Shown: positions 24,683 to 61,852 of the stretch, in pieces
Position numbering within the stretch: the first letter of the stretch is position 1
Layout: each line of letters starts with the position of its first letter
Translations under genes and position numbers: made by a program
The notes under the pieces: generated by a model
The model's database searches: none
Seen by the model: the letters and a program-made list of their open reading frames with translations, nothing else
Told to the model about the DNA's origin: nothing
DNA from: Erythrobacter sp. YJ-T3-07
GTDB lineage: Bacteria; Pseudomonadota; Alphaproteobacteria; Sphingomonadales; Sphingomonadaceae
Reading direction: 5' to 3'
NCBI RefSeq assembly: GCF_015999305.1
Contig: NZ_JAEAGP010000001.1
Coordinates: 744,001 to 808,000, forward strand
DNA length: 64,000 nt

Positions 24683-26206
24683 ATGACCGACGCGCCGCAA
24701 CTCAAGCTGTTCAATTCTCTCAACCGCCAGCTGGAACCCTTCGTTCCGGTCCACGAGGGGGAGGCGCGCGTCTACACCTGCGGGCCGACGGTCTATAACT
24801 ACCCGCATATCGGCAATATGCGCGCCTATGTGTTCGCGGATGTGCTGGGGCGCACGTTGAGCTGGCGCGGCTACAAACTCACCCACATCATCAATATCAC
24901 CGATGTCGGCCATCTGACCGACGACGCCGATGCGGGCGAGGACAAGCTGGAGAAGACGGCTGCGACGCAGAAGCAGTCGATCTGGGATATTGCCGAGCAT
25001 TACACAAAGGCGTTCAAGGACGACATAAGCGCGCTCAACATACGTCAACCGGCGCAGTGGTCGGTCGCGACCGACTACATCGCGGAGATGATCGACTTCG
25101 CGAAGCAGATCGAGCCGAAGCACTGCTACCAGCTGGAGAGTGGGCTCTATTTCGACGTCTCGACGGTCGAGGATTACGGGCGGCTGGCGCGCGCCGTGAC
25201 CGAAGAGGGCGAGGGCCGGATCGACACGGTCGAGGGTAAACGCAATGCCGCCGACTTCGCGATCTGGCGCACCACGCCCGCGGGCGAGACGCGGCAGATG
25301 GAGTGGGATTCGCCCTGGGGTCGCGGCGCGCCCGGCTGGCATCTCGAGTGCAGCGTGATGGGCGGCAAGCTGCTCGGCTTCCCGTTCGACATCCACACCG
25401 GCGGGATCGACCACCGCGAGATTCACCACCCCAACGAGATCGCGCAGAACCAGGCCTACTGCGGCTGCGGCGGGCTGGACGACGCGGCGCATTCGGGTGC
25501 GAAGATCTGGATGCACAACAACTTCCTGGTCGAGCGGTCGGGCAAGATGAGCAAGTCGAGCGGTGAGTTCCTGCGGTTGCAGCTTCTGATCGGCAAGGGA
25601 TACCACCCGCTCGCCTACCGGATGATGTGCCTCCAAGCGCATTACCGCAGCGAGCTGGAGTTCTCGTGGGAAGGGCTGGGTGCAGCGCTGACCCGGCTGA
25701 AGCGGATGGTGATGGCTGTTGAACAGCTTAAGAACCGTCATGCCGAACTTGTTTCGGCATCCAGCGAGCAGCCCGAGCCGTTTGTGCAGGAGGCGGGCTG
25801 GACCCTGAAACAAGTTCAGGGTGACGATTGGGGTAAGATCGCGCCAGCGATTGAGAAGTTTCAGGCGGCACTGGCCGACGACCTCAACACGTCGATCGCA
25901 CTGACTGCGCTCGAAGAGGCTTTGACGATCAAGAAGGTTGACCCGGCGCAAAAGCTGCGCGCGGTGGCTGCGATGGACGCCGTCCTCGGCCTCGGCCTGC
26001 TCGACCTCGCGCGGACCGATCTGCGCATTCGTCCGAAGGACGCGGTTATCACCGACGACCATATTACATCGGCTATCGCGTTTCGGAAGGAGCTTCGAGC
26101 GCAGCAGAACTACGCTGCTCTCGACCGCCAGCGCGACGAGCTTACCGCGAAGGGCGTCGAGGTGATGGACGGCGACCCGCTCGGCTGGGAGTGGAAGCTG
26201 GCGTGA
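24683..26206 (+). CDS. cysS: Cysteinyl-tRNA synthetase with in-frame repeat insertion
   Basis: A 507-residue class I synthetase. The HIGH-like motif is PHIGN (near residue 37), KMSKS is GKMSKSSG (near 290), and zinc ligands lie in CGPTVY, WHLECS and IHHPNE. It charges tRNA-Cys. The family usually has about 460-480 residues. The extra length here includes residues 352-382, exactly encoded by a 91-bp pair of inverted hairpins, inserted after the catalytic core in the C-terminal helical region. Apart from the insert the reading frame is intact, and being presumably the only cysS the protein must be functional. The start at 24683 gives the typical N-terminus. Confidence 0.95.
   Translation: MTDAPQLKLFNSLNRQLEPFVPVHEGEARVYTCGPTVYNYPHIGNMRAYVFADVLGRTLSWRGYKLTHIINITDVGHLTDDADAGEDKLEKTAATQKQSIWDIAEHYTKAFKDDISALNIRQPAQWSVATDYIAEMIDFAKQIEPKHCYQLESGLYFDVSTVEDYGRLARAVTEEGEGRIDTVEGKRNAADFAIWRTTPAGETRQMEWDSPWGRGAPGWHLECSVMGGKLLGFPFDIHTGGIDHREIHHPNEIAQNQAYCGCGGLDDAAHSGAKIWMHNNFLVERSGKMSKSSGEFLRLQLLIGKGYHPLAYRMMCLQAHYRSELEFSWEGLGAALTRLKRMVMAVEQLKNRHAELVSASSEQPEPFVQEAGWTLKQVQGDDWGKIAPAIEKFQAALADDLNTSIALTALEEALTIKKVDPAQKLRAVAAMDAVLGLGLLDLARTDLRIRPKDAVITDDHITSAIAFRKELRAQQNYAALDRQRDELTAKGVEVMDGDPLGWEWKLA
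25736..25826. repeat. REP-like hairpin doublet inside cysS
   Basis: Two inverted hairpins, each CGTCA-stem-loop-TCC. The left arm is TGCCGAA-CTTGT-TTCGGCA; the right arm, read on the minus strand, is ACCCTGAA-CTTGT-TTCAGGGT. They share the loop CTTGT and flanks but differ in stem bases in a pairing-preserving way. The 91-bp doublet is in frame and encodes about 31 residues (RHAELVSAS ... GWTLKQVQGD). Confidence 0.9.
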
Positions 26207-59413: not shown

Positions 59414-60331
59414 ATGATGAAGAGCAATTCTACCTCCACCTTCACCTCCACCAGGGCCGCGCTGGTCTGCGGGATCGCCGTTCTAGCCATGCCGGCGAGC
59501 GTTTCGGCACAGCAGCAGTGGGCGGACACCTCTGCCGATGCCACCGGCGAGACGACGCTGACCGTCACCGGCACGCTGCCGGGCGATATCTCCAACCTGC
59601 CCGAAGGGCCCGAGATCGACGGGTTCATCTCCGCCCGCAGCGACAACCGCATCCAGGTGACCACCGAAGACGGAGCGAAGACCGTCCTGTTCGTCTCCCC
59701 GGAAACCGAGATCAAGGCGCGCGGCGGCTTCCTCGGCCTGGCGCGGACCTCGCTCGAGGACGAGCAGCTGTATAACGGCGTGCCCGTGACCGTGCGGACC
59801 GTGCAGTGGGAAGACGGCCTGATCGCGCAGCGGATCAGCATGAAGGATAGCGATCTGAAGACCGCCGCGATGATCCAGCGCGGGACGGAGCAGGGCTTTG
59901 CCGAACAGACCGCCGCGACCGAGGCGCTGCGCGGGCGCGTGGCCGATATCGACAATTACAACGTCAAAGGCACGACCAACGTCTATTTCGACACCGGCGA
60001 ATACAAGCTGTCGGGCCAGGCGCAGGCGCAGCTGTGCGGTGCCGCCGCGCAGGCCGACCAGATGGACAACGCGCTGTTGCTGGTGGTCGGCTATACCGAC
60101 TCGACCGGCAGCTACGAGGTCAACCAGGAGCTGAGCGAGAAGCGCGCGGAGCGGGTGGTCAACTACCTGCAGCAGCAGTGCGGCTGGAAGCCCTACCGCA
60201 TGCTGACGCCGACCGGCATGGCGCAGGCCGACCCGGTGGCGGACAACTCCACCGACTACGGCAAGCAGCAGAACCGCCGCGTGGCGGTGAACATTCTCGT
60301 CAGCAAGGCTGTCGACGGAATGGGCGGCTGA
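59414..60331 (+). CDS. OmpA-domain envelope protein
   Basis: A 305-residue exported protein with a signal peptide ending near ASVSA (residue 32). The N-terminal part has beta-rich sequence (LTVTGTLPGDISNLP; a DUF-like domain). The C-terminal OmpA domain (residues about 195-300) carries NVYFDTGEYKLSGQAQAQL, LVVGYTDSTGSYEVNQELSEKRAERVVNYL and NRRVAVNIL, which bind peptidoglycan non-covalently. It anchors the envelope to the wall. An inverted repeat is upstream and a weak terminator downstream. Confidence 0.87.
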   Translation: MMKSNSTSTFTSTRAALVCGIAVLAMPASVSAQQQWADTSADATGETTLTVTGTLPGDISNLPEGPEIDGFISARSDNRIQVTTEDGAKTVLFVSPETEIKARGGFLGLARTSLEDEQLYNGVPVTVRTVQWEDGLIAQRISMKDSDLKTAAMIQRGTEQGFAEQTAATEALRGRVADIDNYNVKGTTNVYFDTGEYKLSGQAQAQLCGAAAQADQMDNALLLVVGYTDSTGSYEVNQELSEKRAERVVNYLQQQCGWKPYRMLTPTGMAQADPVADNSTDYGKQQNRRVAVNILVSKAVDGMGG

Positions 60332-60416: not shown

Positions 60417-60451
60417 CCTTCGTCATCCCCGCGAAGGCGGGGATCCCGCTT
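60417..60451 (+). repeat. 35-bp palindromic repeat, left copy flanking a GIY-YIG pseudogene
   Basis: CCTTCGTCA-hairpin-TCC: the hairpin pairs ATCCCCGC with GCGGGGAT around GAAG. The right copy (60756-60790) is the same sequence inverted with two differences that form one compensatory base-pair change. Confidence 0.9.
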
Positions 60452-60461
60452 CCTTTCACCG

Positions 60462-60749
60462 TCACAGAATGTCCCCGAACCGGTCTACCCATTCCGGGTT
60501 CTGCTCCTCGATCAGCCGGATTTTCCACGCTCGCCGCCATTTCTTGACTGCTTTCTCACGCGCAATGGCATCTTCGATCCTGTCGTGACGTTCGGCGTAC
60601 ACCAGGCGATGCAAGCCGTACCGCTTGACGAAATCGGAGCCATCTCCGGCGCGATGCTAGTGAACGCGAGCCGCGAGGTCAGCCGTCACACCGATGTAGA
60701 TCGTCCCGCGATAGCGATCGGCCATGAGGTAGACCCACCCGCCCTTCAT
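60462..60749 (-). pseudogene. GIY-YIG endonuclease gene with an in-frame amber codon
   Basis: Read from the ATG at 60749 on the minus strand, the frame gives MKGGWVYLMADRYRGTIYIGVT..., a good GIY-YIG N-terminus (VYLM...IYIGVT). At codon 31 comes TAG (60657-60659), then the frame continues HRAGDGSDFVKRYGLHRLVYAERHD...EKAVKKWRRAWKIRLIEEQNPEWVDRF up to TGA at 60462. Homologues of this UPF0213-like family usually have Gln at this point (CAG), so one C-to-T change inactivates it. It lies between inverted 35-bp palindromes. A suppressed or programmed stop cannot be excluded. Confidence 0.82.
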
Positions 60750-60755
60750 TCAATT

Positions 60756-60790
60756 AAGCGGGACCCCCGCCTTCGCGGGGGTGACGAAGG
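60756..60790 (-). repeat. 35-bp palindromic repeat, right copy flanking a GIY-YIG pseudogene
   Basis: Inverted copy of 60417-60451; on the minus strand it reads CCTTCGTCA-CCCCCGC-GAAG-GCGGGGG-TCC. The stem pair that is T-A in the left copy is C-G here. The pseudogene's ATG starts only 6 bp inside it. Confidence 0.9.
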
Positions 60791-60808: not shown

Positions 60809-61852
60809 CTACTCCCCAGTCCCCTCGTACGCATCGACGATCCGCCCCACGATCGGGTGGCGGACCACGTCCGCGCTGGTGAAGCGGATCGTGCCGAAGC
60901 CTTCGATGCCTTCCAGCTTCTCGACCGCGTCGGCGAGGCCGCTCATGCGGTCGCCGCCGGGGATATCGACCTGCCGCGGATCGCCCGCCACCACCATCCG
61001 GCTGTTCTGGCCGAAGCGGGTGAGGAACATCTTCATCTGCTCGCGCGTGGTGTTCTGCGCCTCGTCGAGGATCACGAAGGCATCCGCCAGCGTGCGCCCG
61101 CGCATGAAGGCGATAGGCGCGATCTCGATCACGCCGCTGGCGATGTGCCGTTCCACCTGTTCGGGCGGCATGCAATCGTACAGCGCGTCGTAGAGCGGGC
61201 GCAGGAAGGGATCGACCTTCTCCTTCATGTCGCCGGGGAGGAACCCGATCTTCTCGCCCGCTTCCACCGCCGGGCGGCTGAGGATCAGTCGCTGCACGCT
61301 GCCGCTGGTCAGCTGCGCGACCGCCTGCGCGACCGCAAGGTAGGTCTTGCCGGTCCCCGCCGGGCCGAGCGCGAAGATGATGTCGTCGCGGCTCAGCGAG
61401 CGCATGTAATGCGCCTGCACCGCGCTGCGCGGAACGATGGTCTTGCGCCGGGTGCGGATCATGATCGGCGGTGCGCCGTCTTCGCCCGCGCGGCGGCCCT
61501 TGATGATTCCGTCGAGCGTGGGTTCGTTGGTCATCGCGATGATCGCCTCGATCGCGCCTTCGTCGAGGTCCTGCCCCAGCGCCAGCTTGTCGTACATTGC
61601 CTGCAGGACGTCGCGGGCGCGGGCGACCGAATCCTCCGGCCCTTCGATCATCACCTTGTCGCCGCGGGCGGAGATGAAGACCGACAGGCGGTTTTCCACC
61701 TGCACGAGGTTGGCATCGAACTGGCCGAACAGCGGGACCAGCAGGGACTGGTTCTCGAAATTCATTTCGGCCCGTGCGCGGCGTACTTCGCGCTGGGGGT
61801 GCGGTGGCGGGGAGAGCCGGGGCTCTCCGGCGCGAGTTGGTCTGCGGCCCAT
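60809..61852 (-). CDS. phoH: PhoH-family ATPase (YbeZ type)
   Basis: A 347-residue PhoH protein with a KH-like N-terminal part and an ATPase core: Walker A GPAGTGKTYLA near residue 145 and Walker B FVILDEAQN near 240, with SRPAVEAGEKIGFLPGD typical of the family. It acts with YbeY in RNA metabolism. AAAGGAG just upstream supports the start at 61852. Its usual neighbour ybeY is at 54.5 kb, not next to it. Confidence 0.94.
   Translation of the reverse strand: MGRRPTRAGEPRLSPPPHPQREVRRARAEMNFENQSLLVPLFGQFDANLVQVENRLSVFISARGDKVMIEGPEDSVARARDVLQAMYDKLALGQDLDEGAIEAIIAMTNEPTLDGIIKGRRAGEDGAPPIMIRTRRKTIVPRSAVQAHYMRSLSRDDIIFALGPAGTGKTYLAVAQAVAQLTSGSVQRLILSRPAVEAGEKIGFLPGDMKEKVDPFLRPLYDALYDCMPPEQVERHIASGVIEIAPIAFMRGRTLADAFVILDEAQNTTREQMKMFLTRFGQNSRMVVAGDPRQVDIPGGDRMSGLADAVEKLEGIEGFGTIRFTSADVVRHPIVGRIVDAYEGTGE

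Follow-up and report, generated by a model that had tools for sequence, protein, structure and literature searches.

A small GIY-YIG nuclease gene set between two inverted hairpins is a real and general arrangement, and the copy in the window (the whole 64-kb stretch of DNA that was analysed) is a relic. That copy is probably (at a probability of roughly 0.6) a degenerate member of what might be called a GIY-YIG REPtron, that is, a gene for a hairpin-specific, Ssn-like nuclease together with the hairpins that the enzyme would recognise and help to spread. REP-plus-enzyme pairings are of a known kind, but the enzyme class here differs.

The unit in the window

The unit lies between an OmpA-like gene and a gene that we take to be PhoH-like, with the following layout.

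60417..60790, no strand assigned: whole unit, hairpin, GIY-YIG (pseudo)gene and inverted hairpin, 374 bp (inverted-repeat search; same-site units in five congeners)
60417..60451, + strand: left 35-bp arm, holding a CGTC-type REP hairpin at 60420-60446 (TCGTC tag, 8-bp stem, 4-nt loop, CC tail)
60756..60790, - strand: right 35-bp arm, inverted, with its hairpin at 60761-60787
60465..60749, - strand: GIY-YIG nuclease gene, 95 codons with one in-frame TAG (PF01541 match, 45.5 bits)
60657..60659, - strand: the in-frame TAG, codon 31
59414..60331, + strand: left neighbour, OmpA-like gene (name from a reading of the translation)
60809..61852, - strand: right neighbour, presumably a PhoH-like gene

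A sequence-only reading had described a 374-bp unit with a 35-bp palindrome at each end in inverted orientation, and an inverted-repeat search recovered this pair of arms (60417-60451 and 60756-60790; 35 nt, 94% complementary, spacer 304 nt). The two differences between the arms do swap one stem pair (T-A for C-G), as that reading said. Its claim that a GIY-YIG gene stands alone between the repeats survives in part: a single minus-strand frame with a PF01541 match lies there, but the frame is broken by a TAG. Similarly, the start codon was placed 6 bp inside one repeat; the 6-bp offset is right, but the ATG at 60749 lies on the inner side of the right arm, outside the arm itself.

In a profile search the interrupted frame (60749-60465) scores 45.5 bits against PF01541, above the cut-off of 22.6, and an intact orthologue scores 52.4 bits. 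G16, Y19, G21, H33, E66 and N85 are among the columns invariant across 26 relatives. The only two PDB sequences matched by the profile are 1zg2 (E 6.5e-11) and 1ywl (E 1.2e-6), UPF0213 GIY-YIG proteins listed as 'hypothetical UPF0213 protein'. In PADLOC, one of three proteins gave a weak match (UzuA, E 2e-4); PHROG gave no match for three proteins, and NCBIfam no family for four.

Because of the in-frame TAG at 60657-60659, the gene as sequenced in the window is a pseudogene. A unit stands at the same site in five congeners, with intact gene copies in four and a different in-frame TAG of its own in the fifth. Six of the ten genomes of the genus, the window genome included, have the unit here, so that its insertion is not recent. 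Pairwise dN/dS among the six same-site orthologues ranges from 0.07 to 0.21 over 15 pairs (a simple count, with dS up to 1.1), which indicates purifying selection on the gene at this site. Together with the independent in-frame TAGs in two of the six, these values fit a gene that was long kept and is now decaying in some lineages. The neighbouring PhoH-like gene has a single match per genome in all 21 relatives searched.

CGTC-type hairpins in the window genome

When up to three mismatches are allowed, the 27-nt hairpin occurs in the 64-kb window only at the two arm sites (shuffle mean 0.00, n=100). Genome-wide, the same limit gives 23 matches, two of them in the window unit, and the reversed pattern gives none. 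Twenty of the other 21 copies belong to 13 inverted dimers with a total length of 73-111 bp, all with their CGTC tags outermost; one dimer has a class B hairpin as partner, and the remaining single copy adjoins a class B hairpin. As the arm pair around the GIY-YIG gene is oriented like these dimers, the gene takes the place of the dimer spacer. Over 15 distinct variants, which as copies in one genome are related, 97.5% of the cells in the 8-bp stem are paired, against 90.1% in shuffles; four of the eight stem pairs have changed on both sides, with a covariation score reached in none of 500 shuffles. These paired changes bear out the suggestion that the hairpin itself is maintained.

CGTC-tagged REPs, including the family CGTC-1, have been reported in five phyla, mostly in Alphaproteobacteria, with Neisseria dRS3 among them (Di Nocera, De Gregorio, & Rocco, 2013; PMC3733652). 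CGTC-1 elements carry an unpaired CGTC tag, an 8-bp stem, a 4-nt loop and a short tail, and occur predominantly as head-to-head dimers (PMC3733652). The window hairpins agree with this structure in tag, stem, loop and tail (TGTC is also accepted as the tag, and the tail is unpaired), and the dispersed copies in the window genome are likewise mostly head-to-head dimers; by sequence and layout they are classed as CGTC-type REPs, a described superfamily. In the accessible text of the same paper, CGTC REPs are apparently without a dedicated transposase, no tyrosine transposase gene is flanked by CGTC repeats, and no transposase gene is associated with CGTC-1, whereas the window hairpins bracket a GIY-YIG nuclease gene; the term 'GIY' is absent from its main text (PMC3733652).

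The window also holds a head-to-head dimer of another hairpin class at 25736-25825, with GTCATGCCGAACTTGTTTCGGCATCC on the + strand and GTCACCCTGAACTTGTTTCAGGGTCC on the - strand. The same class brackets the window genome's GIY-YIG gene at C1:2979085.

Inverted hairpins around homologous genes

Homologues of the GIY-YIG protein occur in 41 of 60 genomes (the window genome and its relatives). The survey set comprised 80 regions around homologue matches, with E down to 2.6e-20, plus two loci of the window genome itself, 82 in all; one match at a contig edge (G047:C527) was left out, and two tandem matches in G057 were counted as one region. A strict detector of GTCA-hairpin-TCC repeats with tags outward found them on both sides of the gene at 46 of the 82 loci, on one side at 14 and on neither at 22. 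Random positions of the same loci gave repeats on both sides in 0 of 4,100 cases and on one side in 130. A detector of any inverted repeat (score of at least 14), which ignores orientation and the CGTC tag, passed 71 of the 82 loci of relatives against 0 of 81 control windows. Homologous genes are therefore flanked by such hairpins far more often than control positions are, the comparison by which the sequence-only reading had proposed to check its claim.

The arrangement is also present, with other hairpins, in many other bacteria. Named genomes, taken as the best 80 of 558 relatives of one homologue, pass the inverted-repeat test at 59 of 80 loci, 52 of them with an internal hairpin, against 0 of 68 controls. 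Judged by title, the passing records among these best 80 of 558 belong to Alpha-, Beta- and Gammaproteobacteria, Nitrospirota, Elusimicrobia and Mesoaciditogaceae; those that fail include both Chloroflexi records, Doudnabacteria and Planctomycetota. A phylum-wide sample gives 22 of 29 passing loci (29 of 30 counted, the window's own locus L272 being left out) and 0 of 25 controls.

Orientation, scored separately by a simple rule, is outward at 55 of the 71 passing loci of relatives, 40 of the 59 named loci (from the best 80 of 558) and 19 of the 22 in the phylum sample. Tags face inward at 2, 11 and 2 of these loci, respectively, both kinds of tag are present at 5, 4 and 1, and the rule makes no call at 9, 4 and 0. 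Outward tags are the rule, not without exception. The named loci at which the tags of the best pair face the gene are L186, L189, L207, L225, L230, L236, L244, L253, L254, L259 and L260.

Within the window genome, all four small GIY-YIG genes lie between inverted hairpins: the one in the window, L042, L041 and L043, the last with a hairpin on one side by the strict rule and on both sides by eye if a GTCG tag is accepted. The UvrC-like gene L044 (653-aa frame) is unbracketed, the best inverted repeat over 900 bp on each side scoring 11.

Hairpin type and nuclease clade

Most hairpin classes share a GTCA...TCC frame, and stem and loop vary (GCGAAGGC, GGACTTGATCC, TGAACTTGTTTCA, CATTGCGAG and others). 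On a tree of 79 proteins, the 14 hairpin classes, which were assigned by hand and in some cases from one flank only, require 20 changes against 51.6 with shuffled labels, and none of 200 shuffles is as low; the tree has few columns, near-orthologues inflate its clustering, and it omits L141, L142 and L152 and carries L130, L147 and L149 without a hairpin label. For these classes, hairpin type follows nuclease clade.

A second nuclease clade has a different hairpin. The fourth GIY-YIG gene of the window genome was considered as a negative control and rejected for that use, being bracketed by an inverted CCGTTCGTCCTGAGCTTGTCGAAGGGCGAA hairpin.

G000:C1:2312318-2312533: L041, second-clade small GIY-YIG gene; its frame runs into the hairpin

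In this second clade (L041 and L352-L370), an inverted hairpin of the CCGTTCG-CTGAGC-GTCGAAG type or a variant of it (e.g. CCGTTCGTGTCGAGCGAAGTCGAGACAC) is present at 19 of 20 loci, against 0 of 20 controls; the loci were hand-picked from weaker homologue matches, several are same-genus orthologues, and the set omits at least four further long matches (G014, G053, G029:C2 and G033). The core of this hairpin occurs in 33 of the 60 genomes, with no backward matches, and three 15-letter strings of it are absent from the main texts of the papers searched.

Dispersed hairpins were compared with nuclease presence across the 60 genomes, with two hairpins subtracted per fetched unit, presence judged from fetched loci only and statistics that ignore phylogeny. 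At least four dispersed class C hairpins are found in 15 of the 17 genomes that have the matching nuclease and in 8 of the 43 that lack it (p 9e-7, kinship ignored). For class A the corresponding figures are 14 of 18 and 14 of 42 (p 0.002, kinship again ignored), and inside the family alone they are 10 of 13 and 12 of 23, a weak difference. Class B gives no association at the same threshold (4 of 11 against 12 of 49, p 0.46) and a rank-test p of 0.014, kinship likewise ignored. Two genomes are rich in class A hairpins that lack a matching nuclease: G044 has 58 and no nuclease homologue match, and G010 has 137 and no class A unit; of its three homologues one is of class C and two belong to the second clade. 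In both genomes the nuclease may have been lost, or another enzyme may act.

Dispersed units and polymorphic sites

Some units resemble mobile elements. In genome G029, three units (L141, L142 and L091) stand at unrelated sites and are 99.8% and 96% identical over ~460 bp, two of them with the same disrupted gene; in G037, two units with unrelated flanks share 89.8% identity over 420 bp. Near-identical copies at unrelated sites, as expected of a transposon-like element, thus occur in G029 and G037, and none were seen for the window's own unit. Identity among the G029 units runs on for ~25-45 bp beyond the hairpins, which are thus not just the termini. The ends of these units lie in sequence with GCGGAC / GTCCGC, possibly another repeat that the unit had entered before it spread. 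At the L142 site, the sister genome G358 has a gap of 509 bp between the flanks, against ~924 bp in G029.

The fnrL-fixJ site on Sphingobium megaplasmids, compared in 8 of 12 records (H73-H84), is polymorphic. Strains TomMM7A, TomMM15 and TomTYG46 have a whole unit, TomTYG64 (L326) and TomTYG74 (L327) have one symmetrical hairpin that reads like the outer halves of the left and right hairpins joined together, TomTYG72 and TomTYG65 have other repeats, and S. herbicidovorans is without such a hairpin. The joined hairpin could have arisen by deletion between the short stem repeats, or it could be the target as it was before insertion. In Sinorhizobium meliloti (L321), an intact unit adjoins a short derivative (~2660-2840) in which both hairpins survive but the gene is reduced to its end, a possible intermediate towards a dimer. 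Sinorhizobium K101 (L330) has neither the intact unit nor the short derivative; at that place it carries a near-symmetrical hairpin, which again looks like two outer halves joined and could be a deletion product or a target site. A further degenerate hairpin in K101 is present in S. meliloti too. Dimer sites also turn over: two sites in the window's genus carry repeats that differ between species, and of two dimer sites on Sphingobium plasmids one has, in two of four records, the second hairpin type instead.

No target-site duplication was noticed at the units. Comparison of loci with and without the unit, as the sequence-only reading had proposed, thus yielded a unit-free site in other species (Sphingobium fnrL-fixJ), but not at the window's own site, where the four congeners without the unit have other, rearranged sequence beside phoH and offer no clean empty site.

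Proposed mechanism and alternative explanations

REPs mobilised by RAYT transposases, the REPtrons that pair the two and the REP dimers known as REPINs are described systems (PMC3733652; see also PMC3116915). The units resemble them in that a nuclease gene is flanked by REPs, inverted REP dimers are dispersed and enzyme type matches repeat type. They differ in the enzyme: a RAYT is an HUH/Y1 enzyme, whereas the gene enclosed here is a GIY-YIG nuclease gene and the window genome has no Y1_Tnp match. The earlier proposal of a RAYT/REP analogue is well supported by sequence as to the pairing of nuclease and hairpins (association, co-segregation, dispersed units, a polymorphic site), but that the nuclease mobilises the hairpins is a step that we infer.

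GIY-YIG enzymes cut by hydrolysis and keep no covalent link to DNA, and because of this no RAYT-like covalent intermediate would be expected. Instead, the nuclease might bind the hairpin in single-stranded DNA (on the lagging strand, or during repair or uptake) and cut beside or within it. Spread would then proceed through repair and recombination, a unit or dimer being copied into the break in a homing-like manner. Dimers would be internally deleted units, and single symmetrical hairpins would be loss products or targets. At its broadest, the proposal is that small GIY-YIG nucleases form a second, non-HUH class of REP-mobilising enzymes, in which every clade originates and sustains a hairpin family of its own, with at least two superfamilies (CGTC and CCGTTCG-CTGAGC-GTCGAAG), and that internal deletion of such units, with spread through hairpin cleavage and copy-in repair, gave rise to many of the dispersed intergenic hairpins in Alphaproteobacteria and other phyla; we put the odds on this wider proposal at about even.

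A close precedent for such an enzyme is Ssn of Neisseria, said to have been described in Nature Communications in 2025. Ssn is reportedly a GIY-YIG, site-specific ssDNA nuclease that acts on the NTS repeat and modulates transformation, and its family is said to include many homologues of differing specificity. The GIY-YIG homologue of N. gonorrhoeae, which we take to be Ssn with NTS as its repeat, lies inside a cluster of 16 dRS3-type hairpins, the nearest pair being inverted with tags facing the gene. Ssn/NTS and the window unit are alike in that a small GIY-YIG nuclease is, by report, linked to a repeat, and in that the N. gonorrhoeae homologue sits among hairpins of the sequence type found in the window. 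They differ in that Ssn reportedly acts on ssDNA in transformation, whereas the gene here is bracketed by inverted CGTC REPs. We know of no claim that the ssn gene and inverted hairpins form a mobile unit, or of a link between Ssn and CGTC REPs.

Recognition of a repeat by a GIY-YIG nuclease is thus probably already known, and the earlier remark that no described system of this type was known probably does not stand, since Ssn/NTS by report links the two. The hairpins, too, belong to the CGTC REPs already described (PMC3733652). No text pairing GIY-YIG with 'repetitive extragenic palindromic' or with 'dRS3' was found in literature searches that miss most subscription papers, and a mobile REPtron class for CGTC REPs, or the second pair of nuclease and hairpin, was likewise not found in them.

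Ssn also suggests an account without mobility, in which the nuclease acts on hairpins in incoming or lagging-strand ssDNA as a transformation regulator or in genome maintenance, as reported for Ssn/NTS, the flanking copies being kept since nearby cutting is useful and the hairpins spreading by other means. Purifying selection and vertical persistence of the unit in six of the ten genus genomes suggest such a host-level role. Also in favour of this account, the N. gonorrhoeae homologue lies in a dRS3-type cluster, and the role described in Neisseria is reportedly in transformation. Near-identical units at unrelated sites, a polymorphic site and a short derivative that retains both hairpins are not predicted by pure regulation, however, and we consider this account unlikely, though still a serious contender.

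Under the REPtron reading the GIY-YIG enzyme itself would move the repeats; it might instead be a passenger among REPs moved by a Y1 (RAYT/IS200-type) transposase. The hairpins are REP-like in size, tag and dimer layout, and Y1_Tnp has matches in 11 of the 60 genomes, among them the hairpin-rich G047 (46 class A hairpins) and G041 (12). Yet Y1_Tnp has no match in the window genome, in its nine congeners or in the hairpin-rich G010, G020, G029, G038, G044 and G050, and neither of two scanned CGTC hairpin patterns occurs at any of 16 Y1_Tnp loci, ~1.6-3.4 kb each. In the accessible text of the CGTC survey, too, no such gene is flanked by CGTC repeats (PMC3733652). A passenger, moreover, would not track hairpin type. 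A RAYT as mobiliser in the window's genus was accordingly rejected as unsupported, with no Y1_Tnp in 10 genomes, and the passenger account is very improbable.

An explanation by coincidence, with ordinary transcription terminators or intergenic hairpins happening to lie on both sides of a small gene, is scarcely credible: G+C-rich intergenic hairpins are common and dispersed copies exist in many of these genomes, but control positions (0 of 4,100) and control windows (0 of 81, 68, 25 and 20) give no such pairs, and predominantly outward tags and a clade-specific hairpin type would be unexpected.

Implications

If the nuclease is the partner of CGTC REPs, what spreads these repeats could be tested with a single small enzyme and a single oligonucleotide for each clade. 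The REPtron reading, if true, would place a hydrolytic nuclease among the means by which tiny non-autonomous repeats are kept going in bacterial genomes. It would also connect the dRS3/NTS system of Neisseria with a broad family, from which many sequence-specific hairpin nucleases might be gained.
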